The notes under the pieces are model-generated. The model was not told the origin of the DNA, ran no database searches, and saw only the letters and a program-made list of their open reading frames with translations. Below, in pieces: positions 6,883 to 23,837 of a stretch of DNA of 42,087 nt. The stretch comes from Ilumatobacteraceae bacterium (GTDB taxonomy: Bacteria; Actinomycetota; Acidimicrobiia; Acidimicrobiales; Ilumatobacteraceae), in the NCBI GenBank assembly GCA_030729045.1, contig JANQYF010000034.1, positions 13,831-55,917 of the forward strand, read 5' to 3'. The position numbers were made by a program, and so were the translations under genes. The stretch's first letter is position 1. Each line of letters opens with the position of its first letter.

Positions 6883-7191
6883 GTGAGTAATCGAAATCGC
6901 AACCAGGATCGTGCACCTGCACCGCGTGAAGAATTGCGGGCACATGCCCACAATGAACGTCACCGTGTGCATAGCGAACTTCACTTAGCGGAAGAAGCAT
7001 TACGGCACGGTCTCGAACCACTAGATGTGGAAGAGCCTGGACCTGAATGGAAACCAGTTCATCACCATGATCCGCTTATTGGCATTGAAAAAAGCCGTAA
7101 GCACGTGTTGAAGCACTGGAAGACAAAAGAATGGAAGCGACGAAAGACTGTTCGTCGACAGCGCGCTCAAGCGCTCAATTCTCCGCTCTAA
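6883..7191 (+). CDS. small basic His/Arg-rich protein, unknown function
   Basis: 102 residues, no recognised family. The start is GTG, supported by a near-perfect AAGGAGG 5 bases upstream. The protein is very basic and hydrophilic: the first 40 residues hold many Arg, His, Asn and Glu; a middle segment (about 46-66) has PLDVEEPGPEWKPVHHHD; the C-terminal third (about 68-102) is Lys/Arg-rich (KHWKTKEWKRRKTVRRQ). No signal peptide, membrane segment or cysteines. Composition suggests nucleic acid binding or a disordered partner protein, which is inference. It follows the protease by 111 bases and ends 4 bases over the convergent acetyltransferase gene. Confidence 0.72.
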   Translation: MSNRNRNQDRAPAPREELRAHAHNERHRVHSELHLAEEALRHGLEPLDVEEPGPEWKPVHHHDPLIGIEKSRKHVLKHWKTKEWKRRKTVRRQRAQALNSPL

Positions 7192-7817
7192 GGAGTAATC
7201 CAACCTTCAAGAAAGTCTTCACGGCGTTCGTTCCATTCTTCAACGGTGATGCCGTAACGCACATGGTCTTCCCATGTGCCGTTGATTTCAAGAAATCGTT
7301 CGGCAACACCTTCGGTGCGAATGTCTAGTTTTTCCATCACGCGACGTGAGTTGCTATTGCGCGGGATGATGCATATCTCAAGTCGGTGTAAGTGCAGATT
7401 TTCAAATGCGTATTGAGCGACCACAACTAAAGCTTCTGCCATGAGTGAACGACCAGCACGCGACTTGTCAATCCAGTAGCCGATGGTTGCAGATTGAAAT
7501 GCGCCGCGAACAACATTGTTCAAGTTGATTTCTCCGGCGAATGCACCGTCGACAAAAATACCGAAGGCGTACTGTGAGCCGGCAAGTCGTTCACGGTCTC
7601 GTGCGCCACAGCGTGCAGCAAACACATCACGGTTTTGTTCAGGGTCTGGGTGGTGCACCATTCGCATTGGTTCCCACACCGTGAGCCATTCACCATTACG
7701 GCGACGTACTTCGCTCCACCCTGTGAAATCTTGCGGAACAAGTGGGCGCAACACCACGCGCCGGCCATACAAACGAAGCCCAACGTTCGATGGTCGTGCT
7801 GGATGAACCGCGGTCAT
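7188..7817 (-). CDS. GNAT-family N-acetyltransferase, RimJ/RimL-like
   Basis: 209 residues. GNAT enzymes transfer acetyl from acetyl-CoA to amines; the RimJ/RimL branch modifies N-terminal amines of ribosomal proteins. Typical elements are LRPLVPQDFTGW near the start, the middle strand GYWIDKSRAGRSLMAEAL (acetyl-CoA loop region), HRLEICIIPRNSNSRRVMEKL, and the C-terminal NGTWEDHVRYGI. I chose the ATG at 7817, which overlaps the ppx stop codon by 4 bases (ATGA), over an upstream start at 7919 whose 34 extra residues have no family match. It is the last gene of the DUF501-ppx run. The exact substrate is not readable. Confidence 0.86.
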   Translation of the reverse strand: MTAVHPARPSNVGLRLYGRRVVLRPLVPQDFTGWSEVRRRNGEWLTVWEPMRMVHHPDPEQNRDVFAARCGARDRERLAGSQYAFGIFVDGAFAGEINLNNVVRGAFQSATIGYWIDKSRAGRSLMAEALVVVAQYAFENLHLHRLEICIIPRNSNSRRVMEKLDIRTEGVAERFLEINGTWEDHVRYGITVEEWNERREDFLEGWITP

Positions 7818-8722
7818 GAATTCAGTCTGGCACGGTGGGCGACCCCATCGAGAAGTCCGCGGGTTGACACGGTTATCTCTGAGAGGTGCAGGCGGCGCAT
7901 AGTGGCAACGAGAATGCAACAGCCGGCCACAATGATGTCTGCTCGGTCTGGGCCAAGGCCTGGGTTTTGCACACGTAGCGCCAATGGCTCGGTTGCTACC
8001 GTGCGAAATACATCTTCAACGGCCTCACGAGACAGTGTCATCCCGTGCAGTGCAGCATCGTCAAATTCGTGCAGCCCCAGTTCAACTGCAGCAATAGCGA
8101 CGATGGTGCCCGCAACGCCCACTGTGCGAATTGCGGTGGCAACAATGGGGTGATCGCGAGTGATGTCTTCTAGTTCATCAGACACTGCACCAATGAGGTT
8201 GGTGAGATCTTCAGGGCGCGGCAGGTCTGAGGAAATATGAGACTCAGTAGACGTCACTGCGCCGAACGGGATGCTGGCAAAGACATCAATTGATTGTGTT
8301 CCGACTGTGTATTCGGTGCTGCCTCCACCAATATCAATTACCAAGGTAGGTGCGTCGAGGACGGGGAGACCGATGAGCGCACCAGAAAATGTCAAGGCTG
8401 CTTCGTCGGATTCCGACAACACCTCAAGGGTTAACTGAGTTTTTGCTTGTAGTAATTCACTGAAGGCAGTGGCATTGCGGGCTCGCCGACATGCGGCGGT
8501 TCCGACGATGTGAATAGTGGAGGCGCCTAATGAGGTAGCGGTGGCTATGTATGCCGTAATGACTTCGATAGTGCGTGTCATTGCTTCAACGGAGAGTTCG
8601 CCAGTTGAGTGAAGCCCTTCTCCGAGTCGTGTTGAAGTGATTACACGTGTGAGTTCTTTGCCATGTTCATCAATGACAAGAAGATTCGCAGAATTAGTTC
8701 CTACGTCGATAGCTGCAATCAT
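7814..8722 (-). CDS. ppx: exopolyphosphatase / pppGpp phosphohydrolase (Ppx/GppA family)
   Basis: 302 residues, the usual length of the short two-domain actinobacterial Ppx. The enzyme removes terminal phosphate from polyphosphate and may hydrolyse pppGpp; the fold is actin-like ATPase. Motifs: AAIDVGTNSANLLV at the N-terminus (phosphate 1 loop), ESDEAALTFSGA around 104-114 with the catalytic Glu region, and DIGGGSTEY (130-138, phosphate 2 loop). The ATG at 8722 overlaps the DUF501 stop codon (TAATG) and begins right at the conserved fold; an in-frame ATG at 8731 is also possible. The DUF501-ppx pair is a standard actinobacterial neighbourhood. Confidence 0.9.
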   Translation of the reverse strand: MIAAIDVGTNSANLLVIDEHGKELTRVITSTRLGEGLHSTGELSVEAMTRTIEVITAYIATATSLGASTIHIVGTAACRRARNATAFSELLQAKTQLTLEVLSESDEAALTFSGALIGLPVLDAPTLVIDIGGGSTEYTVGTQSIDVFASIPFGAVTSTESHISSDLPRPEDLTNLIGAVSDELEDITRDHPIVATAIRTVGVAGTIVAIAAVELGLHEFDDAALHGMTLSREAVEDVFRTVATEPLALRVQNPGLGPDRADIIVAGCCILVATMRRLHLSEITVSTRGLLDGVAHRARLNS

Positions 8723-9216
8723 TACGGCCATATCGGCTGCGCGTACGTAACGCCACGTTCGTCGAGTTGTTGTGCAACCCATTTGCCAACAGAGTCATCG
8801 CCACCTGCAAGCCAATGTGCGAAATGTGCGTGCAAGCATTTAACACCACGTCGCGTGCCACCAACTCCGGCAGATGGGCGAGGCCCTTCATGAGTGGCAG
8901 GAATCATTGCGTCACGTCGTTCTTGGTAGCGCACATGAATTGCGTCAATTGCATCGAGACCAATGATGGCTTCAACAGTGTTAACGCCACCATCAGCTTC
9001 CAATGTGCTGACTGCATGTACCTCTGTGCCTCCGACAAGCCAGTACAGAGTTGGCATGGGTGTGCCGTCTTCCAAAAGTGGGGCATTCATCAGAACAACG
9101 GGAGAACTATCAGTAGCGCGAACAACCACGCGAAAATCGCCTTGTGGAATGCGACCAATTAGGGCAGTGACAGCGGCGAGATCTTCAGGTGAAGGGGAAG
9201 CACCGGGTAGTTGCAT
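8722..9216 (-). CDS. DUF501 family protein
   Basis: 164 residues. DUF501 is an actinobacterial family of unknown function, nearly always between ftsB/divIC and ppx. The family-typical C-terminal block GGTRRGVKCLHAHFAHWLAGG (119-139) has a Cys and several His that could bind metal; earlier blocks include PTLYWLVG. The start codon lies 3 bases after the coxG stop, and the stop overlaps the ppx start, so it is tightly coupled to both. The unusual point is its upstream neighbour: a cox accessory gene instead of ftsB. Confidence 0.9.
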   Translation of the reverse strand: MQLPGASPSPEDLAAVTALIGRIPQGDFRVVVRATDSSPVVLMNAPLLEDGTPMPTLYWLVGGTEVHAVSTLEADGGVNTVEAIIGLDAIDAIHVRYQERRDAMIPATHEGPRPSAGVGGTRRGVKCLHAHFAHWLAGGDDSVGKWVAQQLDERGVTYAQPIWP

Positions 9217-9219
9217 GAA

Positions 9220-9846
9220 TTAGCGAACGACAAGCCACACAAGAACAGCAACAACCACAACGACAACGGGGATGGCCCGCTTGAGAATTGGGCTGCCTGC
9301 TGCACTGAGAAGGTCGAGTGGTGCAACTTCTGCGCTTTCGATGGTGCGAACACCGTCGGTTGGTGCTGTTTCTGTAGCAACTGGCGCTGTTGTTGCAGGT
9401 TGTTCTGCAATAAGAGCATTCAAGTTGACAACAAACTGCGCCAACAATTTGTCGCTGATGTCTGCCATTGCGCCACGACCAAACTGTGCAACTTTTCCGG
9501 TGACAGATAGATCTGTGTTGACAGTGACAGCGGTGTTGTTTGCGTCAACTGCTGTCATCTCAGCGGTGATAACTGCTGCGGCGTTTCCTTTGCCTGTGGT
9601 GTCACGACCTTCGCCCTTGAGCACTACTTTGTGGGTAGTGTCGTCGCGTTCGATAAAACTTGCCTGACCTTTGAACTGTGCCTGAATGGGTCCGACTTTG
9701 ACTTTGACTACTCCGCGGTATGTTTCGCCTTCGATTTCTTGCAGTTGGGCACCAGGGAGGCAGGGTGCAATGCGCTCGACGTCAGTAAGGATGCGCCATG
9801 CATCTTCCACGGGAACTGCAACAGTGAATTGATGATTTAGGTCCAT
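9220..9846 (-). CDS. coxG: CoxG-like SRPBCC protein with C-terminal membrane anchor
   Basis: 208 residues. The first 150 residues match the CoxG (carbon monoxide dehydrogenase subunit G) SRPBCC fold: FTVAVPVEDAWRILTDVERI, CLPGAQL, YRGVVKVKVGPIQAQFKG and a final helix with FGRGAMADISDKLLAQFV. An Ala/Thr-rich linker (about 155-185) leads to a single C-terminal hydrophobic segment (AIPVVVVVVAVLVWLVV, about 191-207). In characterised CO oxidisers CoxG tethers the dehydrogenase to the membrane and helps pass electrons to quinone. It overlaps the mocA-like gene by 10 bases and is 3 bases from DUF501, so it may be transcribed with both. Confidence 0.9.
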   Translation of the reverse strand: MDLNHQFTVAVPVEDAWRILTDVERIAPCLPGAQLQEIEGETYRGVVKVKVGPIQAQFKGQASFIERDDTTHKVVLKGEGRDTTGKGNAAAVITAEMTAVDANNTAVTVNTDLSVTGKVAQFGRGAMADISDKLLAQFVVNLNALIAEQPATTAPVATETAPTDGVRTIESAEVAPLDLLSAAGSPILKRAIPVVVVVVAVLVWLVVR

Positions 9847-10415
9847 GTGTCGAGATCCTCTGTGGTGTCGATATCTGCTGAATTGCCTTCACAGGCTACT
9901 TCCCGAACGAGTTCAGGATGCAGGTGAATGAGACTTCGTGCCCCAGCATCTGGGTCTGATTCGAGGTCTTCAAATGTCTCCCACACGCTGGAATGAAGTC
10001 GAACGGGGTTGCCGCGTGTTCCGTTGTATGTGGCAATCGCAATGGGGGACATTGAGGATGCAACATTTGTCCACGCCTCCGATGTGAGAAATGGTTGGTC
10101 GGCTAGTCCGACAACAATGGCGTCGTAGCCGTGGTTGCGAGCAAAATTAATTGCTGTGATTACGGAACTGCGTTGACCTGTTTTCCAATCCGGATTATGA
10201 ACTTCCTCAATATCGCCGATCTGGCCATCGAGGTCGAGAGCACCGGAGACGACAATGAATCCATCTAGGTGCGAGCCGGCCATTGCGTTGAGTGAACGCG
10301 AGAAGATTGTTTGTCCATCAATGTGTGCCAACAATTTATGTTGAGAACCAAAAAAGCGAGTGCCAGAGCCAGCAGCCAAAAGGACCCCGAGGGCGGTGCT
10401 GTGACTTGGTTCCAT
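9837..10415 (-). CDS. mocA: MocA/MobA-like nucleotidyltransferase for molybdenum cofactor
   Basis: 192 residues. The N-terminal nucleotide-binding signature LLAAGSGTRFFGSQHKLL (12-29) is of the MobA-like NTP transferase fold. Other family positions are the TGQRSSVITAI block and VGLADQPFL. MocA makes molybdopterin cytosine dinucleotide, the cofactor form used by CO dehydrogenase and related hydroxylases; context beside cox genes supports this over guanylyl transfer. ATG start at 10415; it overlaps coxG by 10 bases and is divergent from the NlpC/P60 gene with only 19 bases between starts. The cytidylyl specificity is inferred from neighbours. Confidence 0.84.
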   Translation of the reverse strand: MEPSHSTALGVLLAAGSGTRFFGSQHKLLAHIDGQTIFSRSLNAMAGSHLDGFIVVSGALDLDGQIGDIEEVHNPDWKTGQRSSVITAINFARNHGYDAIVVGLADQPFLTSEAWTNVASSMSPIAIATYNGTRGNPVRLHSSVWETFEDLESDPDAGARSLIHLHPELVREVACEGNSADIDTTEDLDTWT

Positions 10416-10434
10416 TCGTAATAGCCTGCCCTAA

Positions 10435-11124
10435 ATGATTCGGGTTGGCACATTTCTGCGCGGGGTAGCCGCAATAGGCATTCTTAGTGCTTCTCTGCAT
10501 GTCGGGCCGGTCAGTGCGGCGGGAAATTCAGGCAAAGATGCTTCATCACGTCGATTGCAAATGCCTGGCGAACGTATCCGTCAACGCCCTCAGATTTCTA
10601 TTGATGCTATTCGAGCCTTAAGTCTCATAATGCGAACAGAGAATAAAGAAGACCCCTCATATTTGGAGTTGCGCCGTGTTGTCTCGAATGGTGTTGCTAA
10701 ACGTCTGGCACTAGACCTGAATGATTTGAACAGGGCATGGTCACGTGCGCCACGTGATCATCAGATAGCGGTGTTGTCGGCGCTCACACAACTAGGTGTT
10801 CGGTACGTCGAAGGCAAAGAAGACTCGTACGTGAAGATGGATTGTTCAGGGCTTCTGTGGTTTGCATGGCGAACGGCTGGCGTTGACATGCCTCGCCAAG
10901 CAGTGTCACAACTTGATCGTCGTATGCGTGTTGAACGCGAAGATGCGATAGCAGGAGATATCACCGGCGAGGGAACCCATGTACAGATGTATCTGGGTAC
11001 GGGGCTTGCAATGATTCATGCACCGTTTGGTGGTAAGTTTGTGAAATTCAAAATCATGTCTACTGAACAAGCAGCACGAGTTGTGTGGACCAACCCAAGC
11101 AATATTGCAACGTTCCGCCTATAG
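10435..11124 (+). CDS. secreted NlpC/P60-type cell-wall hydrolase-like protein
   Basis: 229 residues. A signal peptide is likely (hydrophobic core about 8-24, cleavage after VSA near 28). The C-terminal half carries an NlpC/P60 cysteine peptidase core: Cys137 in MDCSGLLWFAW, His182 in GTHVQMYLG and a third polar residue, His195, in MIHAPFGG. The family cuts peptidoglycan stem peptides. The usual glycine-rich YxWGG segment before the cysteine is altered (VRYVEGKEDSYVK). Residues 30-120 are helical and basic with no recognised domain. It is the only plus-strand gene within the cox accessory run and seems unrelated to it. It ends 3 bases before the convergent XdhC gene. Confidence 0.8.
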   Translation: MIRVGTFLRGVAAIGILSASLHVGPVSAAGNSGKDASSRRLQMPGERIRQRPQISIDAIRALSLIMRTENKEDPSYLELRRVVSNGVAKRLALDLNDLNRAWSRAPRDHQIAVLSALTQLGVRYVEGKEDSYVKMDCSGLLWFAWRTAGVDMPRQAVSQLDRRMRVEREDAIAGDITGEGTHVQMYLGTGLAMIHAPFGGKFVKFKIMSTEQAARVVWTNPSNIATFRL

Positions 11125-11127
11125 CGG

Positions 11128-11928
11128 TTAGTGAATTGCGCCATCGCTGGCGCCAAGAGGCGAAGCATTACGCCCTGTGCGAGTTGCGATAATTTCGCCC
11201 ACGATTGAAATAGCTGTTTCTTCAGGTGTACGGCCACCAAGGTCTAAGCCAATTGGTGAATGAATACGGGCTAGATCAGCTGCACTAGTGATTCCGACCT
11301 CAGCCATGCGTTCAAGACGCTTTGCGTGGGTTTTGCGGCTACCCATAACTCCGATGTATCCGGCAGATGTTGCAAGTGCCCCTTGAATTGCTGGCACATC
11401 AAACTTTGGGTCGTGCGTCAAAATACACACGGCATCACGAGACGAAAGGCGGTGCCCATTTTCTGTGAACATCGGTGTTGGCCATGTGACTTTGACTTCA
11501 TCGGCCATCGGAAAACGACGACGTGTTGCAAACACTTCGCGTGCATCACACACGGTGACGTGGTAGCCAAGAACTTTTGCAACGCGGGCGAGTGCAGCGG
11601 TGAAATCAACTGCACCGAAGATCCACATAAGTGGCGGTGGTGAAAAACTCTCGACGAAGATGCGCACTGTTTCAGTATCAATAAGGTCTTCTGGTGTTGA
11701 TTCACCGTGTGGTCCGTAATGACGAACCGACGTGCGTCCTGCTTCCAGTTCGCCAAGTGCATCACGTGCCACGATTCGGTCAATGTCTGCATTGCCGAGT
11801 GATCCACCAACTATTCCTGCTGGGGTAACAACCATTGTTGCGCCAACGTGAGGGCCTTCAATAACCGTGACTAACGCAACGGGTGAATTGTCACGAACAT
11901 GCGCAGAAAAAGTTTGGTATGAATTCAT
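11128..11928 (-). CDS. XdhC/CoxI family protein with Rossmann domain
   Basis: 266 residues. An N-terminal XdhC-type domain (about 1-85; IVGGSLGNADID replaces the usual Cys-containing GSxSGGCVE loop) precedes the XdhC C-terminal Rossmann domain (PPPLMWIFGAVDFTAALARVAKVLGYHVTVCDAR; AGYIGVMGSRKTHAKRL; GRTPEETAISIVGEI). XdhC proteins bind and help insert molybdenum cofactor, often adding the sulfido ligand. The ATG at 11928 lies 2 bases past the preceding gene's stop; an ATG at 11937 would overlap it. It works in the Mo-hydroxylase maturation set with the short XdhC protein, CoxE and CoxD. Confidence 0.88.
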   Translation of the reverse strand: MNSYQTFSAHVRDNSPVALVTVIEGPHVGATMVVTPAGIVGGSLGNADIDRIVARDALGELEAGRTSVRHYGPHGESTPEDLIDTETVRIFVESFSPPPLMWIFGAVDFTAALARVAKVLGYHVTVCDAREVFATRRRFPMADEVKVTWPTPMFTENGHRLSSRDAVCILTHDPKFDVPAIQGALATSAGYIGVMGSRKTHAKRLERMAEVGITSAADLARIHSPIGLDLGGRTPEETAISIVGEIIATRTGRNASPLGASDGAIH

Positions 11929-11930
11929 GG

Positions 11931-12248
11931 TCACCATTCGAGTGGCTGAATGAAGAGGTGGATGATGCCGCCGCATGTGAGGCCGACAGCGAATGCTTCG
12001 TCATCTGAATAGCCGAACGTAACAACACGGCTTGGCTGTTCACCAGACAGAATTGCCAACGCCTCTGAGACAACAGCGCTTTCCACGCATCCACCACTGA
12101 CAGAGCCACTAACTTCACCGTCTTGGTTGACAGCCATTGCTGCGCCTGCGCCACGTGGGCCAGAGCCTTCAATGTCAACAACACGTGCGATGGCCACTCT
12201 TTTGCCGTCTGTTTGCCAGCGATCAATGTCAGTAAGAAGTTCACGCAT
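11931..12248 (-). CDS. standalone XdhC/CoxI N-terminal domain protein
   Basis: 105 residues, only the XdhC_CoxI domain. Visible are RVAIARVVDIEGSGPRGAGAAM (a family match near the start), the loop GSVSGGCVES (48-57) with Cys54, and GLTCGGIIHLFIQPL at the C-terminus with a second conserved Cys. The ATG at 12248 overlaps the end of the VWA gene by 8 bases. Together with the next gene it supplies two XdhC-type polypeptides, one with the cysteine loop and one with the Rossmann domain. Likely cytosolic cofactor insertion for the CoxMSL-type enzyme. Confidence 0.85.
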   Translation of the reverse strand: MRELLTDIDRWQTDGKRVAIARVVDIEGSGPRGAGAAMAVNQDGEVSGSVSGGCVESAVVSEALAILSGEQPSRVVTFGYSDDEAFAVGLTCGGIIHLFIQPLEW

Positions 12249-13365
12249 GATTAATGACCTTAGTGAGTTGCTCGAGGGCATCAAGAGAATGTCCCTCCAC
12301 GAAGTCATCAACATACGGCAGAGCAGCAGCCATTCCTCTGGCAAGAGGGGCGTATCCCGGCGTTACCTTCAGAGGGTTCACCCACACCATGCGAAATGAC
12401 ACACGATGAAGCCGTTCCATCTGTTCTGCTAGCACGATGGGGTCTCCACGATCCCAACCATCTGACAAGACAACAACAATTGCGCCACGGGCCATGCCGC
12501 GAACGCCCCATTCATTATTGAACAAACGCAATGTCTCGCCGAGGCGCGTTCCGCCGCTCCAGTCACGAACATTCTCACCAGCTGCGCGCAGTGCACGATC
12601 AGGATCTTTTGAAGAAAGTTCTCGAGTAATGCGCGTAAGCCGAGTGCCTAATGTGAAGGCCTCAACACGCTGGCGGCCCGCGACGCCTGCATGTACGAAC
12701 CGAACAAGTGCACGCGCATATGGCTCCATCGAGCCACTGATGTCGAGAAGAAACACAATGCGTCGTGGCTTGTCGCCCTTTTCCACCCAATGGCGTCGCA
12801 TTGGCTCGCCACTTGCGGCAAGAGACGCCCGAACTGTTGCACGCATGTCAGGGCGCTTGCCCCGTGAGCGTGTTGGTTTCATGCGCAGTGATGGGCGAGG
12901 AGGACCAGCCATGCGCAGTGATTGCATGAATTGCTGTGCTTGGTTCATCTCGTCATTTGAATATTCAGCAAAGTCTTTGTCACGCAATGTCTCAACACCA
13001 GAAAATCGAAGCGTGATGGTGGGCTCATCTGATGCATCTGCATTTCCGTCTGCACTGCCTTCGTCTTCAGTGTCCAACGCAAGGGTGACCTTTAGCTGTT
13101 CGTCGTCGTCGGCTACTACAGATTCACGATGTTCCCAGAAAACGTTGAAAGCTTTGTCATACATTGCAATATCTTCAGGGCGTCGTACCAAAGTGGTGCG
13201 GCCAGCCCAGTACACAGAATTACGGTCTTCGATGCCGACTAACGACAATGCGTTGATGAACGTGAGAACAGAATCAAGTGGTGTTGCAATATCGAGACGG
13301 CGAAGAATGCGCGCGAATCCGACTGCGAGTCGGTCTGGGTTTGACTCAACCGTGAAGGAGGCCAC
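12241..13365 (-). CDS. coxE: VWA-domain protein, CoxE-like Mo-hydroxylase maturation factor
   Basis: About 374 residues from the GTG at 13365; a TTG at 13386 would add 7 residues. The VWA metal-ion site DISGS is about 40% of the way in (LLDISGSMEPYARALVRF), followed by GGTRLGETLRLF and VVLSDGWDRGDP, typical of the CoxE family (DUF58-like VWA). An acidic insert (about 95-125) precedes a basic stretch (PTRSRGKRPD). CoxE works with the AAA+ protein CoxD in assembling the Mo-Cu or Mo site of CO dehydrogenase. Its start overlaps the end of moxR/coxD by 20-41 bases, implying coupled translation. Confidence 0.88.
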   Translation of the reverse strand: MASFTVESNPDRLAVGFARILRRLDIATPLDSVLTFINALSLVGIEDRNSVYWAGRTTLVRRPEDIAMYDKAFNVFWEHRESVVADDDEQLKVTLALDTEDEGSADGNADASDEPTITLRFSGVETLRDKDFAEYSNDEMNQAQQFMQSLRMAGPPRPSLRMKPTRSRGKRPDMRATVRASLAASGEPMRRHWVEKGDKPRRIVFLLDISGSMEPYARALVRFVHAGVAGRQRVEAFTLGTRLTRITRELSSKDPDRALRAAGENVRDWSGGTRLGETLRLFNNEWGVRGMARGAIVVVLSDGWDRGDPIVLAEQMERLHRVSFRMVWVNPLKVTPGYAPLARGMAAALPYVDDFVEGHSLDALEQLTKVINHA

Positions 13366-14269
13366 GGTCGAATGCCTGTTGTACAACGCCAGCGATTCCG
13401 TGATCGCGCACGCGACTGTGATCTTCGCGATATTTCAGCACCGTGCCGAGAGTACGGTCGAGAACTGTTTCATCAATTTCCGTGATGCCAAGTCGGCCGA
13501 GTGCTGCTGCCCAGTCAATTGTTTCTGCCACCCCAGGTGGTTTGTACAAGTTGATAGCGCGCAATGCTTCGACTGCGCCAGCAACTTGACGTGCAAGAAC
13601 TTCGCTTGCTTCTGGAACACGCATACGTACAATTTCGACTTCGCGATCAAACGAAGGGTGTTCAACCCAGTGGTACAAACAACGGCGCTTCAGTGCGTCG
13701 TGAACATCGCGGGTGCGGTTTGATGTGAGAATCACGATGGGTGGGTTGTCTGTACGAAAGGTTCCGATTTCAGGAACTGTTACTTGAAAATCTGACAACA
13801 CTTCTAATAGGTATGCCTCGAACTCGTCATCGGCACGGTCGATTTCATCGATCAGCAATACAGGTGGAGTGGTGTGTCCGTAGTCAATTGCGCGAAGCAG
13901 TGCGCGCTTCAGTAAAAACCGTTCGTCATACAGTTGACCTTCTAGTTCTGCAGTTCCGGATTGTGCTGCTTCACCAGATGCTTCGGCTGCGCGTAGGTGC
14001 AACAACTGGCGCGAATAATCCCAGTCGTACACAGCTTGTGCTGCATCAATACCTTCGTAACATTGCAAACGAATCAGTTCAGCGTTCTGCCAACGAGCGA
14101 TGCTTTTTGCTAGTTCGGTTTTGCCAACGCCCGCTTCGCCCTCAAGAAAAAGGGGGCGGTGCAGTGTGAGAGCAAGAAAGACAGCAGTGACAAGACCTTC
14201 GTCAGCTAGGTATCCGTGTGCGGCAAGCCCATCAGCGACTTCTTGAGTGGTTTTCGGCTCGTATGACAC
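13346..14269 (-). CDS. coxD: MoxR-family AAA+ ATPase, CoxD-like
   Basis: 307 residues. Walker A is GEAGVGKT (44-51), Walker B VLLIDEID (137-144), then ADDEFEAYLLEVLSDFQVTVPE and the sensor region VILTSNRTRDVHDALKRRCLYHW, all standard for MoxR ATPases. CoxD is a chaperone-like ATPase needed to mature the active site of Mo-CO dehydrogenase and pairs with a VWA protein (CoxE), which is the next gene here. ATG start at 14269, 24 bases after the stop of the FAD oxidoreductase gene. Cytosolic. Confidence 0.93.
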   Translation of the reverse strand: MSYEPKTTQEVADGLAAHGYLADEGLVTAVFLALTLHRPLFLEGEAGVGKTELAKSIARWQNAELIRLQCYEGIDAAQAVYDWDYSRQLLHLRAAEASGEAAQSGTAELEGQLYDERFLLKRALLRAIDYGHTTPPVLLIDEIDRADDEFEAYLLEVLSDFQVTVPEIGTFRTDNPPIVILTSNRTRDVHDALKRRCLYHWVEHPSFDREVEIVRMRVPEASEVLARQVAGAVEALRAINLYKPPGVAETIDWAAALGRLGITEIDETVLDRTLGTVLKYREDHSRVRDHGIAGVVQQAFDRGLLHG

Positions 14270-14293
14270 GTATAGAGCGTAGGGGATAAAGCC

Positions 14294-15700
14294 CTATGAG
14301 TCCCATCCGAGACCGAATCGGTCAAGGGTGCGCAGCCATGTATTGCGTGTTCCGGTCTTGTCTTCATGATCAAGAGACCACCGAGTGGCTTGAATACCAA
14401 TGAATCGAAATGGCTCTGGAGGAAACGGCACAGGCTTTGTGCGTACGAATTCAGTTGCTGTTGCTCGAGTGCGACGACCATCAATGAGGTCAAGCATGAC
14501 TTCAGCGCCGAATCGAGACGCTGCAACGCCCAAGCCGGTGTAACCAAGCGCGTATGACACGCGACCGCCCATTGCTTTACCCCAGAACACGCAGTAACGA
14601 CTGCACGTGTCAATGACGCCACCCCACATATGAGAAAAGCGCACGCCTTCAAGTTGAGGAAATGTTTCAAAGAAATGCTGTGACAACATGGCCCATGATT
14701 CTGGACGTGATTCATTTTCTTGGCGCACTTTTCCTGCGAAGAAATACACCGCGTCGTATCCGCCCCACAAGATGCGATTGTCTTCAGTCAGTCGGTAGTA
14801 ATGAAACTGGTTTGGAATGTCACTCAGACCTTGACGGCCCTTCCATCCGATGGAGTCAAGCTGTGATTGCGTCAGTGGTTCTGTAACCATGCAGTAGTCA
14901 TAGACCGGTGCTACATAATTACTAAGACGCTTGAGTACCGGTTTGAATGCATTTGTGGCAAGTGCAACCTTGCCTGCACGAATACGACCAAGTGGAGTGG
15001 TGACAAGCACACCTACTCCGTCCTTTTCCATTGACAAAGCCTTTGAATCTTCGTAGATACGCACACCCAATGATTCGGCTGTTGCCTTTAAGCCCCACAC
15101 CAAACGTGCAGGGTCAATCAGTGCTGCGGTGTCATGTCGCCACAAGCCACCTGTGTACAGCGGTGAGTGGACTTGTTCTTGCATTGCGTCGCGATCTAGC
15201 CATGTAACTTTTTGCCCTAATTTGCGAAGTTGTGCGTAATCGTCGCGTAGTTCATCAAGATACGACGTTGGGTGAGTTGTCATCGCAACATCAATTGCAC
15301 CTGTGCGCTCCCAATCGCAATCAATGTTGTATTTCTTGACCGCAGCTTCAATGTCATTGAGATTCTTCAGGCCAAGTTCTTCAAGTACAGATACTTCATC
15401 TGGGAATCGTGCTTGCGCATTTGCAATGCCGTGCGTTAACGATGAATCAACAAAGCCACCGTTTCGTCCGCTGGCAGCAGAACCCACTTCATGCGCCTCA
15501 ATCAGAATGACATCACGTGATGGGTCGCGTTCTTTAGCCAGGATGGCAGTCCAGAGGCCTGTGTAGCCACCGCCAATAATGCAGAGGTCGCAGCTTTCGG
15601 TGCGGACCAGGGTTGGGTTCGAATCGGGTTCGTCTACGTCTTCATACCAGTAGGGATATGTATCTGCGTCGGCGATCGCGTCGAGATGACGCTCGTCCAT
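14294..15700 (-). CDS. FAD-dependent amine/amino-acid oxidoreductase (DAO family)
   Basis: 468 residues. An N-terminal FAD-binding Rossmann motif, LCIIGGGYTGLWTAI (39-53), is followed by IEAHEVGSAASGRNGGF, typical of the DAO/gamma-glutamylputrescine oxidase-like branch; the C-terminal ALGYTGLGVAASRFGAEVMLDL is the second FAD contact. Such enzymes oxidise amines, D-amino or N-methyl amino acids, giving an imine and H2O2 or reduced acceptor. The substrate is not determined. It lies between the coxD-E run and coxMSL but is a different chemistry. ATG at 15700, 56 bases from the divergent SDR gene. Confidence 0.88.
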   Translation of the reverse strand: MDERHLDAIADADTYPYWYEDVDEPDSNPTLVRTESCDLCIIGGGYTGLWTAILAKERDPSRDVILIEAHEVGSAASGRNGGFVDSSLTHGIANAQARFPDEVSVLEELGLKNLNDIEAAVKKYNIDCDWERTGAIDVAMTTHPTSYLDELRDDYAQLRKLGQKVTWLDRDAMQEQVHSPLYTGGLWRHDTAALIDPARLVWGLKATAESLGVRIYEDSKALSMEKDGVGVLVTTPLGRIRAGKVALATNAFKPVLKRLSNYVAPVYDYCMVTEPLTQSQLDSIGWKGRQGLSDIPNQFHYYRLTEDNRILWGGYDAVYFFAGKVRQENESRPESWAMLSQHFFETFPQLEGVRFSHMWGGVIDTCSRYCVFWGKAMGGRVSYALGYTGLGVAASRFGAEVMLDLIDGRRTRATATEFVRTKPVPFPPEPFRFIGIQATRWSLDHEDKTGTRNTWLRTLDRFGLGWDS

Positions 15701-15756
15701 GGTTTCACCACCTTGTGACAGTCAGGCTACCTGAGCTGCATGGTTACTGTGGGTGT

Positions 15757-16503
15757 ATGGATCTTGGACTAACTGGAAAAACAGCTGCGATTGCAGCTGG
15801 AACTGCTGGATTGGGCCTTGGCACCGCCAAGGCGCTCGCTGCGGACGGGGTTCGTGTCGTTGTATGTGGTCGTGACGAGAATCGCTTAGAAAAGGCTCTC
15901 AGTGAAATTGGACATGGTGCCATTGGTTTTGTGTGTGACGTTTCTACCGATGTTGGTGGACGTGAGTTTGCAGAACGCGCAATTGCAATGCTCGGATCAA
16001 TTGACATCCTTGTTGCGAATGGTGGGGGGCCGCCTCCTGGCGGCTTTGCCCAGACCGCTGAATCGCAGTATTTAGAGGCGCTGCAAAAGAACTTACTCAG
16101 TGTTGTTGCTATGTGTCAGGTGGCAGTGCCGCCGATGCGTGAACGCAAGTGGGGTCGCGTACTTGCAATTACATCGGTTGCAGTACGTCAGCCAATGAAC
16201 AACTTGATTTTGTCGAACACTGCTCGTGCCGGAGTAACAGGGTTCCTCAAGACTCTCGCTCGTGAAGTTGCAGGCGACGGAGTCACTGTTAATTCCATTC
16301 AGCCAGGTACTCATGCCACTGATCGCATCACGCATCTGTACGGAGCAAACCCAGATGCAAAAGTAATGGGTATTCCTGCTGGCTTTATAGGAGACGCTGA
16401 TGACTTTGGTCGCATTGGTGCTTTCATGTGCAGCGACTCAGCCAAGTTCATGACTGGTGTGCAGTTGCACGTTGATGGCGGTTCATACGCCGGATTGTTA
16501 TAG
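15757..16503 (+). CDS. SDR-like protein with degenerate catalytic tetrad
   Basis: 248 residues with the short-chain dehydrogenase fold: glycine loop AAGTAGLGLG (13-22), Asp61 in CDVS, and NGGGPPPGG (88-96) replacing the usual NAG motif. Ser140 sits at the active-site serine, but the Tyr-x-x-x-Lys positions 13 and 17 residues later read Ser153 and Arg157. This matches a known atypical FabG-like subgroup whose members lack the standard tetrad and often carry NGGGP. The start is ATG 15757; longer in-frame starts from 15613 overlap the divergent oxidoreductase and add no homology. Reaction unknown; it may be pseudoenzymatic or use other residues. The Dabb gene follows 9 bases later. Confidence 0.85.
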   Translation: MDLGLTGKTAAIAAGTAGLGLGTAKALAADGVRVVVCGRDENRLEKALSEIGHGAIGFVCDVSTDVGGREFAERAIAMLGSIDILVANGGGPPPGGFAQTAESQYLEALQKNLLSVVAMCQVAVPPMRERKWGRVLAITSVAVRQPMNNLILSNTARAGVTGFLKTLAREVAGDGVTVNSIQPGTHATDRITHLYGANPDAKVMGIPAGFIGDADDFGRIGAFMCSDSAKFMTGVQLHVDGGSYAGLL

Positions 16504-16512
16504 GTTCATTTC

Positions 16513-16806
16513 ATGCTTCATCACATCGTGTTATTCACATGGAACGACAAAGTTCCTGCCGGACACCCAGCAATTGCTGCTAACGAATTACGTAAGTACG
16601 CAGCAACTCTTGATGGTCTTATCTCATACAACTGCGGCCCGAATGCTGGGCACACATCAACTGCAGCCGACTTTGCAGTGTCAGCAGTATTTGAAGATGT
16701 TGCGGCATGGCATGCATATGACACCGCTGATGAACACAACAGAATTCGAGCTGAAATATTCGCGCCATATGTGGCCACTCGGGCCGTTATTCAGTTCGAG
16801 AGTTAG
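16513..16806 (+). CDS. Dabb (stress-responsive A/B barrel) domain protein
   Basis: 97 residues, one dimeric alpha-beta barrel domain. The hallmark N-terminal strand is MLHHIVLFTWND, with GPNAGHTSTAADFAVSAVFED and AWHAYDTADEHNRI in order, as in Dabb proteins. The dimer forms a cavity; some members are enzymes acting on aromatic or polyketide compounds, many have no assigned role. ATG at 16513, 9 bases after the SDR stop, so the two likely share an operon. Convergent with coxM. The two-gene plus-strand unit interrupts the cox gene set. Confidence 0.85.
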   Translation: MLHHIVLFTWNDKVPAGHPAIAANELRKYAATLDGLISYNCGPNAGHTSTAADFAVSAVFEDVAAWHAYDTADEHNRIRAEIFAPYVATRAVIQFES

Positions 16807-16813
16807 CACTCTC

Positions 16814-16828
16814 CACGGGTTATCCGTG
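16814..16828. terminator. possible weak bidirectional terminator hairpin
   Basis: CACGG-GTTAT-CCGTG makes a perfect 5-base-pair stem with a 5-base loop, in the 26-base gap between the convergent Dabb and coxM genes. No clear U-run follows on either strand, so termination strength is doubtful. Confidence 0.3.
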
Positions 16829-16832
16829 TGAA

Positions 16833-17657
16833 CTATTTGCTGGTTGACTCGAGTGCTCGGCGCACCAAAACCTCTGCGAGGTGAACGCGGTACTCCGCGC
16901 TTGCATTGAGGTCTGATTGCGGTTCTGCTTCTGCGCCCGCAAGTTTTGCTGCATCGCTGACGCTTGCTCCACCTGCAATTGCTTTCGCAACACTTGTTGC
17001 CAAAATGGGAACTGATCCCATGTTGACAAGGCCAACACCGGATTCTGTGCCGCGCTTCCATGCAGCTACACCGACAATTGCCCAGTCCTGAGCACGACGG
17101 TTGAACTTCTGAAATCCCCATGTTGCGCCGTTCATTTTTGGAACGCGAATCTCTGTGAGCATTTCGTCAGGAGCAAGTGCTGATTCAAGGAAACCAACAT
17201 AGAAATCTGCAGCTGCAATTTCACGTGTGCCGTTCGGGCCTTGCACAACATATGTGGCACCAAGTGCCAATGTTGTTGCAGGCAAGTCAGAAGCTGAGTC
17301 TGCGTGTGCAATGGAACCACCGATGGTGCCGCGATGGCGCACCTGCGGATCACCTACATGGCTTGCTGCAAATGCCAACAGGGGAACATGCTCGGCAAGG
17401 ATTGGTGATTTCTCAACATCCATGTGGCGAGTCATTGCGCCAATTGCGATGTGGTTGCCCGCATCACGGATGTATGACAAGTCTTCAATACGAGCAATGT
17501 CAATAAGCACTGCTGGTTGAGCGAGGCGTAACTTCATCAGTGGCAACAAGCTGTGGCCACCTGCGAGGAACTTTGCGTCTTCGCCGTACTCGCCGACAAG
17601 CGAGATTGCTTCAGCGGCAGATGATGCGCGCTTGTAATCGAATGGTGCAGGAATCAT
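16833..17657 (-). CDS. coxM: medium (FAD-binding) subunit of Mo-hydroxylase, CoxM-like
   Basis: 274 residues. The N-terminal MIPAPFDYKRASSAAEAISL starts a standard CoxM/CutM domain. FAD loops are FLAGGHSLLPLMKLRLAQP (about 30-48) and GTIGGSIAHADSASDLP (about 110-126); the C-terminal domain has LVNMGSVPI. It passes electrons from the [2Fe-2S] subunit to FAD and on to an acceptor. ATG at 17657, chosen because the 32 extra residues of the longer frame overlap coxS and lack homology. The next gene upstream (coxS) ends 13 bases away. Cytoplasmic side of the membrane. Confidence 0.92.
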   Translation of the reverse strand: MIPAPFDYKRASSAAEAISLVGEYGEDAKFLAGGHSLLPLMKLRLAQPAVLIDIARIEDLSYIRDAGNHIAIGAMTRHMDVEKSPILAEHVPLLAFAASHVGDPQVRHRGTIGGSIAHADSASDLPATTLALGATYVVQGPNGTREIAAADFYVGFLESALAPDEMLTEIRVPKMNGATWGFQKFNRRAQDWAIVGVAAWKRGTESGVGLVNMGSVPILATSVAKAIAGGASVSDAAKLAGAEAEPQSDLNASAEYRVHLAEVLVRRALESTSK

Positions 17658-17670
17658 GAGTGTCTCCGAC

Positions 17671-18129
17671 TTACTTGTTGTTGGCGCATGCGAGCACCGA
17701 CTTGACGATGTTGTGATAACCGGTGCAGCGGCACAGGTTGCCTTCAAGACCAATTCGAACTTGCTCTTCTGTCGGAGATGGATTCTCGTTCAAAAGGCCA
17801 ATCGCTGCCATGACCATGCCAGGTGTGCAATAACCGCACTGCAAACCATGGTTCTCCATGAATGCTTGCTGCATTGGGTGCATGACGCCGTCTTTGGCGA
17901 GTCCTTCAATGGTTGTGACTGAGCCACCGTCTGCCTGAACGGCAAGGACGGTGCAGCTCTTTACTGATTCGCCATTGAGGTGCAATGAGCAAGCGCCACA
18001 ACTAGAGGTGTCGCAACCAATGTTGGTGCCGGTAAGGCCAAGTGATTCGCGCACGTACTGAACGAGCAGGGTGCGTGGTTCAACATCACTTTCGTGTGTG
18101 GTTCCGTTGACGGTAATTGTGACCTTCAT
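17671..18129 (-). CDS. coxS: small [2Fe-2S] subunit of Mo-hydroxylase, CoxS-like
   Basis: 152 residues, the usual length. Two [2Fe-2S] clusters are supported: plant-type ferredoxin cysteines 39, 44, 47 and 59 ([20 protein letters not shown]), and the C-terminal four-helix cluster cysteines 98, 101, 133 and 135 ([25 protein letters not shown]). It relays electrons between the Mo site in CoxL and the FAD in CoxM. ATG at 18129, 42 bases after the coxL stop. Confidence 0.95.
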
Positions 18130-18171
18130 GTTGGCTTCCTTTGTGTGTAGTTCTGTGTGAGTAGTAGTTGG

Positions 18172-20457
18172 TTATCGTGCAGACTGAATTGCAGCCCACA
18201 CCTTTTCAGCGGTGGTTGGCATGTCGATGTGCTTGACACCGAAATGAGATACAGCATCAACAACTGCTGACTGCACTGCCGGCGTGGCACCGATGGTGCC
18301 GGATTCGCCGATTCCCTTTGCGCCAATCAAGTTGACAGGAGTTGGTGTTTCCATGTGTACAACAGTGACGCTTGGGAGTTCTGCAGCCGAGATGAATGCA
18401 TAATCCGCGAGGTTTGAAGTGATGGGGTTGCCATCTGGGTCATACGACACTTCTTCAAGAAGCGCTTGTGCGGCACCTTGTGCAACACCGCCGTGAATTT
18501 GACCTTCAAGCAACATTGGGTTCAGTACTTTTCCTGCATCGTCACATGCGGTGTGAGCAATGTGCGTAACTTTGCCTGTTTCAACATCAACTTCTACAAC
18601 TGCAACGTGTGCACCGAATGGGAACGTAGCGCCAGAAACATTGATGACATCAGAATGAACAAGTCCGCCTGATTGCTTTTCGGCAAGTGCAAGTTCTGCC
18701 CAAGTCTTTGCAACTGCTGGAGTACCTGCAACGTGGAAACTTCCGGAATCTTTGTCGAGAACGATGTCTTCTTCGCTTGCCTCAAGCAAACGAGCAGCAA
18801 CCGACTTTGCCTTGTTCACCAATTCGGCAGCTACTGCGAACACGGCGTTACCGCCCTGTTGCAATGAACGTGATCCCATGGTCCCGGTACCGATTGGTAC
18901 TAGGTCTGTGTCGCCCCATACCAATTCAATGTTTTCAATGGGGATACCAGTTTGTTCATTGGCAAGCATTGCCCAAGATGTTGCGTGACCTTGTCCGTGC
19001 GGCGAGGTACCGGTGTAAATAAGAGCGTGTCCGTTGTCTTGAATTTCGACTTTTGCAGATTCGCCATTGCCAACGCCACCGGTGATCTCAACATAGACAC
19101 TGACGCCGATGCCGATTTGCTTTGCTGCACCGCTATCGCGAGCTGCTTTCTGCTTTGCACGCCAACCCTTGTAATCAGCAGCTTCAAGGACCTTATTCAA
19201 TGAGGTCTCATAGTCGCCAACGTCGTAGGTCTGACCGATAACTGTTGTGTGCGGTGAGAGGAACTTCGGAATGAGGTTCTTGCGACGAACTTCAACTGCA
19301 TCCATGCCAACTTCAAGAGCGAAGATATCCATTGCGCGTTCGATAGCTGCTGTTGCCTCTGGTCGTCCGGCACCACGATACGCAACTGTCGGTGTTGTAT
19401 TTGTAACAACCGATGTTGTGCGGCATTCAATATTTGGAATGGCATACACACCAGACGACATTGGGCGCGTCATGAATGGAGCAAGGATGGTTCCCATGTC
19501 AACCCATGAGCCTGAGTCTTGAATTGCCCAGAATTGGTAGTGAGTAACTGTGCCGTCGCGCTTTCCACCAATGGTGACGTACTGCAATTGCGCACGGCCA
19601 TGACCAAGACCAACCATTGACTCACTGCGAGTTTCACGCCAACGAACTGGAGTGCCGACACGCTTTGCAATGACGCCCAGCAAGAGTTCTTCAGGGTATG
19701 CACCGATCTTTGCACCGAAACCGCCACCAACATCTGGAGTCTTGACATGAACCATGCTCGGATCAACGCCGTTAGTAGCTGCAAGTGGTGCAACTGCACC
19801 TTGTGCGTGCTGAGTAGAGAGCCATTGTGTGAGACGACCATCTTTGCCCCACGCTGCAGCAGCACCTCGAACTTCGAGTGGGCATGGCGCAACGCGCTGG
19901 TTAATGAAGCGACCTTTGGCTACAACTTCACAGTCAGCAAAGTACGCATCACCAGTGTTGTCTGGCAATCCGAGGACCATTGAGTCGAACACGACGTTGC
20001 TTCCGCATGCCTCGTACAACAAAGTTGTGCTGGCCATTGCTTCTTCAAGATCAATAAGCGCAGGAAGCACGTCGTAGTCAATGATGACTGCATCGATTGC
20101 GTCTTCGCCCTCTTCGCGGGTTTCGCTAACAATGGCTACAACTGGTTCACCAACAAAACGCACTTTGTCGGTTGCAAGAAGTGTGCGTGTAGCTGCGGGG
20201 TTGTATGCAGATGGCACGAATTCAAGCCCGAGGTCTTTGCCTGTGAACACCGCGACAATTCCTGGCATTGAAACTGCATCTGAAGTATCAATTGATGTGA
20301 TGTTGCCGTGTGCGACAGTGCTGCGAACATACGTGACATGCAGTGCACCGTGAAGCGCTGGTTCATCTAGTAAGTCATCGACGTACACGCCGCCTGTTGT
20401 AAGAAATTTTGGATCTTCTTTACGAAGAACCCGATTTCCAAGAATGCTTCCAGCCAT
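18172..20457 (-). CDS. coxL: large Mo-cofactor subunit, form II CoxL / aldehyde oxidase-like
   Basis: 761 residues. An aldehyde oxidase/xanthine dehydrogenase a/b hammerhead domain lies at about 15-130, with the Mo-cofactor binding domain following. TPDVGGGFGAK (240-250) and AYRGAGR (359-365) are the active-site loops; the C-terminal KGIGESGTIG holds the conserved catalytic Glu. AYRGAGR marks form II (BMS) CoxL, whereas proven CO dehydrogenases have AYxCSFR with the Cu-binding Cys. Thus a hydroxylase of unknown substrate; CO oxidation should not be assumed. ATG at 20457. The direction of transcription gives L-S-M. Confidence 0.93.
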   Translation of the reverse strand: MAGSILGNRVLRKEDPKFLTTGGVYVDDLLDEPALHGALHVTYVRSTVAHGNITSIDTSDAVSMPGIVAVFTGKDLGLEFVPSAYNPAATRTLLATDKVRFVGEPVVAIVSETREEGEDAIDAVIIDYDVLPALIDLEEAMASTTLLYEACGSNVVFDSMVLGLPDNTGDAYFADCEVVAKGRFINQRVAPCPLEVRGAAAAWGKDGRLTQWLSTQHAQGAVAPLAATNGVDPSMVHVKTPDVGGGFGAKIGAYPEELLLGVIAKRVGTPVRWRETRSESMVGLGHGRAQLQYVTIGGKRDGTVTHYQFWAIQDSGSWVDMGTILAPFMTRPMSSGVYAIPNIECRTTSVVTNTTPTVAYRGAGRPEATAAIERAMDIFALEVGMDAVEVRRKNLIPKFLSPHTTVIGQTYDVGDYETSLNKVLEAADYKGWRAKQKAARDSGAAKQIGIGVSVYVEITGGVGNGESAKVEIQDNGHALIYTGTSPHGQGHATSWAMLANEQTGIPIENIELVWGDTDLVPIGTGTMGSRSLQQGGNAVFAVAAELVNKAKSVAARLLEASEEDIVLDKDSGSFHVAGTPAVAKTWAELALAEKQSGGLVHSDVINVSGATFPFGAHVAVVEVDVETGKVTHIAHTACDDAGKVLNPMLLEGQIHGGVAQGAAQALLEEVSYDPDGNPITSNLADYAFISAAELPSVTVVHMETPTPVNLIGAKGIGESGTIGATPAVQSAVVDAVSHFGVKHIDMPTTAEKVWAAIQSAR

Positions 20458-20547
20458 TTCAAAACCCCCGTGGTCGTTAAGACAGTAAAAGGAACACTAC
20501 CTAGTGGAATTGGGTGGGCTCGCATGGAGCCGTTGCGATTCCGGCCC
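20458..20547 (-). promoter_or_regulatory. upstream region of coxL with inverted repeat
   Basis: This 90-base gap separates ftsB from coxL and is the likely site of the cox promoter. An inverted repeat CACTA-CC-TAGTG lies at 20495-20506, about 40 bases before the coxL start, and could be an operator. No clear -35/-10 pair is visible, so this is a suggestion. Confidence 0.35.
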
Positions 20548-21045
20548 TTACGGGGCTAGGGGCGCAAGAGGAGAAGACGGGGTACCGCTGTCGGCATTGC
20601 GTACGGCCAAGATGTCAGTAATCAATGTGTATGGCCATGTGGGTGGCAGGTCGGTTGGCAGTTTCGGCATCGGGACAAGGGAGAGGCGCTGCTCGCCTGG
20701 CAAGACATAACCCAACTGGGCTCGTGCAGCATTGCGGATGCCTTCTGGGGTTTGAAGTTCGTTGACTTCGGTCTGCAACTGCTCGTTTGCATCAGCAAGC
20801 GCAGCGAATTCTGAGTTCTTTTCAGCAATCGCTGAGCGTTGCGTCACGAAGTCCATTAACGGGAAGAAGAACAATGAGGTGCCACCAGCAACGACCACGG
20901 TTGCCAGAGCCAACCGGGCAATCCAGCGAGTAATTGGACTAGAGATGAGGCGCTGATCGAGTGGGGTAGGGCGTACGAGTGAACTTGTGACATCGCGCGT
21001 GCGTGATCGCAGGCGAGAGAGGGGGTTCAAGAATCGTGGAGCCAC
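20548..21045 (-). CDS. ftsB: septum formation initiator, FtsB/DivIC family
   Basis: 165 residues. A basic cytoplasmic N-terminus (1-40) precedes one membrane segment (about 42-64), a coiled coil (about 66-98) and the FtsB/DivIC block ARAQLGYVLPGE (107-118). Bitopic FtsB binds FtsL and FtsQ in the divisome and helps activate septal peptidoglycan synthesis. The start is GTG at 21045. A Pro/Ala-rich tail extends the C-terminus. Adjacent to enolase, as in many Actinobacteria, but the expected next gene (DUF501) is 11.3 kb away. Confidence 0.87.
   Translation of the reverse strand: MAPRFLNPLSRLRSRTRDVTSSLVRPTPLDQRLISSPITRWIARLALATVVVAGGTSLFFFPLMDFVTQRSAIAEKNSEFAALADANEQLQTEVNELQTPEGIRNAARAQLGYVLPGEQRLSLVPMPKLPTDLPPTWPYTLITDILAVRNADSGTPSSPLAPLAP

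Positions 21046-21100: not shown

Positions 21101-23836
<2,736 letters not shown>

Positions 23837-23837
<1 letters not shown>

Follow-up and report, generated by a model that had tools for sequence, protein, structure and literature searches.

We analysed a stretch of 42,087 nucleotides from an Ilumatobacteraceae bacterium (assembly GCA_030729045.1, contig JANQYF010000034.1, positions 13,831 to 55,917), hereafter the window, in which a block of cox-type molybdenum (Mo) hydroxylase genes splits a run of housekeeping genes between ftsB and DUF501. The source assembly is 80% complete and comprises 1.13 Mb in 41 contigs. On the minus strand, Pfam and NCBIfam identified mfd (24758–28189), a gene for a lipoprotein-like, peptidyl-prolyl isomerase-type (PpiC-type) protein with a signal peptide (23837–24748), mazG (22392–23837), eno (21101–22381) and the ftsB/DivIC gene that forms one flank of the split (20548–21045; PF04977, 2.2e-10). 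Beyond the 11.3 kb block, the run resumes on the same strand with DUF501, the other flank (8722–9216; PF04417, 1.2e-22), and ppx of the Ppx/GppA type (7814–8782; PF02541, 1.3e-49). The first-pass annotation, made from the sequence alone, had given mfd-mazG-eno-ftsB-DUF501-ppx as an actinobacterial run, and the window resembles it in carrying all of these genes on one strand. It differs in the 11.3 kb split and in the lipoprotein-like gene, which lies between mfd and mazG and not after mazG as annotated.

The block contains nine cox genes. Next to ftsB, the minus strand encodes a coxL-type large (Mo) subunit of 761 amino acids with the loop VAYRGAGR (18172–20457; MoCoBD_1/2 and hammerhead domains), a coxS-type [2Fe-2S] subunit (17671–18129; Fer2_2, 2e-33) and a coxM-type FAD subunit (16833–17657; FAD_binding_5, 6.5e-51), whose start was placed at MIPAPF, while the listed open reading frame (ORF) reaches 17753. 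An SDR oxidoreductase gene follows on the plus strand (15757–16503, start inferred, listed ORF from 15613; PF13561, 9.3e-44). The minus strand then carries a DAO-type FAD oxidase (14294–15700; PF01266, 1.9e-58), a coxD/MadB-like AAA+ ATPase (13346–14269; AAA_5, 1.5e-11; NF047784 at 274.8 bits, short of its cut-off of 475), the overlapping coxE gene for a VWA protein (12241–13386; VWA_CoxE, 2e-57), an XdhC protein with the N-domain (XdhC_CoxI) only, whose true start probably lies further downstream in the gene (11931–12344; PF02625, 8e-22), and an XdhC protein with a Rossmann domain (11128–11976; PF13478, 2.6e-43; PF02625, 1.4e-9). A plus-strand NlpC/P60 gene interrupts the block (10435–11124; PF00877, 4.5e-9), and the minus strand continues with a MobA/MocA-like nucleotidyltransferase (9837–10415; NTP_transf_3, 3.4e-23; closest NCBIfam model MocA, 80.7 bits, under the cut-off of 186) and coxG (9220–9846; COXG, 3e-20; no NCBIfam match), in which a hydrophobic C-terminal tail is visible by eye. 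These assignments and gene calls bear out the names that the first-pass annotation gave to the region, the cox block of about 11.3 kb and the spacing of 3 bases between coxG, whose ORF ends at 9220, and DUF501, which starts at 9216.

In 1 kb segments, the G+C content is 0.51–0.55 within the block and 0.49–0.54 in the remaining window. A misassembly, which the annotation had named as a way in which the split might prove false, is very unlikely, because two separate assemblies of the same genus (G247 and G258) carry the same junctions, with best-match identities of 80–99%. The coxG-DUF501 side of the block also recurs in many named metagenome-assembled genomes (MAGs).

The extent of the split was measured genome by genome as the gap between eno and DUF501, with both genes required on one contig and strand. 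The order was taken as Acidimicrobiales by the nearest names: judged by DUF501, the closest relatives with a name are MAGs that bear the titles Ilumatobacteraceae, acIV, Acidimicrobiaceae and Acidimicrobiales, although some titles look wrong. Differing contigs or strands removed 43 of 140 rows from the order sample (148 genomes), leaving 97 measured genomes, and 12 of the 82 genomes of the wider phylum outside the class, leaving 70. In the own-family sample (121 genomes), 65 of 110 rows were dropped and 45 genomes had both genes on one contig and strand, or 44 after G212 was left out. The class sample outside the order, into which only genomes absent from the earlier samples were entered, lost 4 of 111 rows. 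None of the 44 own-family gaps is shorter than 5 kb, and they range from 6.3 to 75 kb, whereas the old junction, with a gap of at most 1.5 kb, is retained in 96/99 genomes of the class outside the order. The gap is at most 1.5 kb in 25/97 genomes of the order and in 36/70 of the wider phylum, where 63/70 lie within 3.5 kb and seven exceed 5 kb (contents not read). Outside the order, ftsB and DUF501 are thus normally neighbours, and the cox block was added to that junction. No measured genome of the own family has the adjacency, and the annotation had named relatives that never show it as the mark of an ancestral split.

To identify what fills the gap, the gaps or control regions of 160 genomes were searched by tblastn with the window proteins, a block being called at five or more of the nine cox genes. 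This set is non-random: it comprises long gaps of up to about 35 kb, the 25 short gaps from the order and selected genomes of the class, and three genomes with gaps too long (G019, G165 and G198) are not among the loci read. The block was found in 91/160 genomes. In the own family it is present in 42/43, the exception being G212, which was read on the DUF501 side only, and coxD and coxE are present in all 42 loci read across. The other families of the order have it in 49/93 genomes, made up of 48 of the 67 long gaps, none of the 25 short gaps, and G380. By contrast with these families, the tblastn search found no cox block in the 24 class genomes read outside the order. Since 28 family codes of the order carry the block besides the window's own, the idea of a new, local insertion did not hold. 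The arrangement is a real and old one that much of the order has kept, and it gives no evidence of a recent insertion event.

The gene order is equally constant. By hit positions, coxD-coxE-xdhC-xdhC-mobA-(coxG)-DUF501 keep their order and a single strand in 87/87 loci with coxD and coxE; six of these lack a coxG hit. When ORF ends were used, the order failed in 19/87 loci, which we took as an artefact where the hit ran past a stop; the same ORF coordinates feed the coxG-DUF501 spacings and the tree proteins, so that single values may be off. The best hits of all cox genes lie on the DUF501 strand in 84/87 loci, with coxS and coxM reversed in G053, G127 and G380, and reversed genes also occur in two loci without coxD and coxE (G095 and G139). 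The first cox gene starts less than 1.5 kb from eno in 63/83 loci. In a named sample, consisting of the best 80 matches and thus biased to near relatives, 9/80 had too little upstream DNA; of the 71 loci whose upstream DNA reaches 1.2 kb or more, 63 have cox genes there (called from two or more cox genes, or from coxG adjoining DUF501), six have eno/ftsB adjacent and two have something else. The accessory genes differ in frequency between the own family and the others: NlpC/P60 hits occur in 40/42 own-family loci (not in G168 and G192), where the maps place the gene between xdhC and mobA, DAO hits in 32/42, and SDR hits in 32/42 (three weak, at 28–32% and on the other strand), as compared to 0/45, 0/45 and 4/45 other-family loci, respectively.

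Four loci (L251, L271, L280 and L284) are reduced to eno, two xdhC genes, mobA and coxG before DUF501, with no hit to coxL, coxS, coxM, coxD or coxE. Four other records (L211, L226, L229 and L241) are titled Bifidobacterium breve, and yet their loci best match the window's family; these titles seem wrong.

The spacing between coxG and DUF501 was available for 85 of the 87 genomes, as two had no recognised core motif. In 78/85 genomes, the coxG stop lies within 100 bp of the DUF501 core motif, and overlapping or near-touching starts are found in many genomes; in G089, the successive spacings between coxD and DUF501 measure −10, −3, 3, 5, −9 and 12 bases. The first-pass annotation had described the new genes as coupled to the old operon. 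The closeness of coxG and DUF501 is indeed general, but coupling of the whole block fails, since the SDR and nlpC genes sit on the plus strand and the block in the window is therefore not one operon. From gene orientation we infer five transcription units: coxL-S-M; SDR; DAO-coxD-coxE-xdhC-xdhC; nlpC; and mobA-coxG-DUF501-ppx. With the opposite-strand genes in place, read-through into DUF501 would be expected from mobA-coxG only, and DUF501-ppx most likely share a transcript with that pair, so that a coupling of mobA-coxG to DUF501-ppx is plausible in the window. In the other-family loci, which have no nlpC hit, the run up to DUF501 can be continuous. A sequence scan found 2 promoter-like sites against a mean of 8.6 in shuffled sequences, fewer than expected, and 12 terminators against 13.4, no excess.

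To follow the descent of the block, a flank tree of eno, DUF501 and ppx (FastTree) was compared with a tree of seven cox proteins in 50 genomes, among which the window's genome alone represents its family. The distances correlate at 0.74, as compared to a maximum of 0.49 in 2000 permutations, and 23 of 47 splits are common to both trees. Partial remnants remain at the site in G140 (mobA and SDR), G081 (mobA), G061 (coxG) and G005 (coxS, coxM, mobA and SDR). Moreover, some genomes without cox group with cox-bearing genomes at strongly supported nodes (G030 and G080, 0.989; G050 and G092, 0.982; G072 and G140 beside four cox-bearing genomes, 0.988). Together, the remnants and these pairs favour loss. 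We then scored CoxE-type genes in whole assemblies at 180 bits or more, a line set by ourselves; six positive controls scored 197–216 and G029 is borderline at 177.7. A second VWA paralogue (about 112–178 bits), found in most of 59 genomes though not, for example, in G036, G135 and G270, was told apart from CoxE. No CoxE-type hit of at least 180 bits was present in the assemblies of 37 of the 44 order genomes that lack a full block at the site. Outside the order, 6/9 tested class genomes carry a CoxE-type gene elsewhere, and the donor cluster could thus have been native to the class.

Given these observations, we consider it likely that the order gained the block once, early, and that it was then inherited mostly vertically and in place, with repeated loss; the trees do not by themselves prove the single gain. 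Several observations weigh against this history. On the flank tree, built from three proteins, the order is not a single clade: a group of 12 genomes from outside the order, and also G282, are nested within it, and G270 and G324 pair with a cox genome at a support of 0.54. The presence of cox takes 19 changes on this tree. For both reasons the tree can settle neither the root nor how often the block was gained, and such change counts cannot tell gain from loss. Its deep nodes are weak, and 6 of the 28 strongly supported flank splits clash with strong cox splits. Seven of the 44 order genomes without a full block carry a CoxE-type gene elsewhere, and some of the losses may therefore be moves. 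The eno-DUF501 linkage can break even in the own family, as the distances in G212 (about 150 kb, on the other side) and G165 (75 kb) show. Two class genomes outside the order (G266 and G271; L172 and L173) have 14–16 kb of other genes and no cox by tblastn between eno and DUF501, so that the junction accepts non-cox inserts too. Finally, for the cox proteins every NCBIfam enzyme model scores under its own cut-off. The 19 changes and such inserts are what one would expect of a permissive site that takes up frequent inserts and that received cox genes several times independently. Long gaps without cox genes in the class (two genomes of f64 and one of f75), the gaps over 5 kb in 7/70 genomes of the wider phylum, and the 19 of 67 other-family long gaps in the order that lack the block (e.g. 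G002, G101, G011, G041 and G071) point the same way. Nevertheless, independent insertions seem unlikely, as the maturation genes that lead to DUF501 are arranged alike and on one strand in every one of the 87 loci, the cox and flank trees match far better than under permutation, and the remnants point to loss. A horizontal insertion that happened only recently, in the lineage of the window, would fit the ftsB-DUF501 adjacency of other actinobacteria, but with coxD and coxE at the site in all 42 family loci read across and a block G+C no different from that of the flanks, it can practically be dismissed.

The type of enzyme can be weighed in the same manner. Among Protein Data Bank (PDB) chains, the large subunit best matches the CoxL of a CO dehydrogenase (8uem_A), to which it aligns over residues 8–759, and coxL retains the GES segment of 8uem, 1ffu and 1n5w, whose Glu is presumably catalytic. 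CoxG matches 8uds_D, a CoxG family protein, at 2.7e-41 over residues 3–149 of 208. These likenesses, together with the coxG-, coxD- and coxE-type genes, are what an aerobic (form I) CO dehydrogenase locus would show. However, in the AYRGAGR loop a Gly aligns with the Cys of the CSFR motif of all three structures, a residue that we take to bind Cu in CO dehydrogenase. In addition, the genes run L-S-M, not M-S-L, and TIGR02416 scores 502.7 bits, far under its cut-off of 991. A form I enzyme is therefore highly improbable here. The likeness to glyceraldehyde dehydrogenase has a similar limit: NF041018 (glyceraldDH_alpha), NF041019 and NF041020 are the best NCBIfam matches of the large, medium and small subunits, but at 609.4, 259 and 238 bits they lie under the curated cut-offs of 790, 350 and 290.

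The closest parallel is form II cox. In excerpts of the literature, an AYXCSFR loop with Cys is the form I motif (PMC13203968) and AYRGAGR the mark of form II, whose activity is unresolved (PMC13203968, PMC13240472); the loop is not exclusive to form II, as other Mo-hydroxylases have it (PMC13240472). The window shares with form II, as those excerpts describe it, the L, S and M subunits, the AYRGAGR loop, which is also found in most large-subunit ORFs of the relatives, and an open substrate class. It differs in the order L-S-M as compared to S-L-M, and in its fixed place between ftsB and DUF501. The S-L-M order is, however, contained in the L1-S-L2-M order of relatives such as G261 and G152, in which a second large subunit lies between S and M. 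From what is known of these protein families, L, S and M would form a Cu-free Mo/FeS/FAD dehydrogenase of the aldehyde or heterocycle type, the MobA-like protein would make the nucleotide form of the cofactor, and XdhC, CoxD and CoxE would finish and insert it. CoxG would anchor the dehydrogenase at the membrane and might also connect it with the quinone pool; quinone transfer by CoxG is cited in an excerpt of PMC13240472, while one of PMC11962113 describes anchoring without a role in electron transfer for the Sulfolobus protein. The loop, gene content and gene order are read directly from the DNA, unlike the substrate class and the electron route, which we infer.

The number of large subunits varies among the 87 coxD-coxE loci: 29 have no large-subunit ORF, 42 have one, 15 have two and one has three. 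Large subunit 1 lies after ftsB and is the only one in the window. Some members of the own family and several other families also have large subunit 2, usually encoded between S and M, and its lineage forms one clade across the own and other families (17 ORFs, support 0.999). Tandem large-subunit arrays, which merged tblastn hits had suggested, were ruled out by the ORF counts, and in G168 (L037:4944–7650) the genes between coxL and coxS encode an ABC-2 type exporter (DrrA/DrrB-like, three genes). A coxL-coxS gap of similar size is present in other family members, with genes not identified, but not in the window.

Among the loci with coxD, coxE, S and M, 21/77 lack a large subunit within the stretch fetched. 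Conversely, all four genomes of the genus for which such places were fetched (G213, G247, G236 and G225; L293, L296, L299 and L302) carry a stand-alone coxL-type gene with the AYRGAGR loop, 53–54% identical to the window coxL and beside an SDR gene; one of these places is on a 4.9 kb contig. No S or M was found by tblastn in the fetched flanks of the four genes, nor by a Pfam scan of the seven ORFs at one of them. The other fetched Mo-hydroxylase places in these genomes have an S of their own, but no coxD, coxE or coxG hit. The second MoCoBD_2 match in the 80% complete assembly that contains the window likewise falls at a place with its own S and is not the stand-alone paralogue. Since some loci have S and M without a large subunit, and some genomes have a large subunit with no S or M found beside it, one S-M pair, one maturation set and CoxG, at a fixed place among division and polyphosphate genes, may serve several large (catalytic) subunits, some encoded elsewhere, and the substrate range might shift by gain or loss of large subunits alone. 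Judged by gene content, we regard such sharing as a tentative idea, and a doubtful one.

Under the favoured history of one early gain, a form II-type Mo hydroxylase locus would have come to lie between ftsB and DUF501 a single time, at an early point in the history of this actinobacterial order. The original one-strand order would have been ftsB - large subunit 1 - S - large subunit 2 - M - coxD - coxE - xdhC - xdhC - mobA - coxG - DUF501 - ppx. The window's lineage would then have lost large subunit 2, and the DAO gene and the inverted nlpC gene, seen only in the window's family, would be additions. In several families, loss of the whole block or of parts of it would have brought ftsB and DUF501 close again.

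We found no description of a cox block at the ftsB-DUF501 junction in the open-access literature, although the survey was limited and is weak evidence of absence. The conserved link of a Mo-enzyme with a cell-division and phosphate gene run, in 29 family codes, provides a stable marker for the order, and the fixed locus gives a handle on form II enzymes, whose substrate is unresolved. The constant coxG-DUF501 pairing offers a genomic context for DUF501, a family of unknown function in Pfam. If the sharing of one S-M pair among several large subunits were true, the counting of these enzymes in genomes would change, as large subunits without neighbours could be functional.

Two further genes were noted around the locus. 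A small basic protein is encoded on the plus strand at 6883–7191, beside a GNAT gene, and has matches in many near relatives. The contig also carries a MoeA gene, for cofactor synthesis, about 11 kb outside the window on the side of its start.

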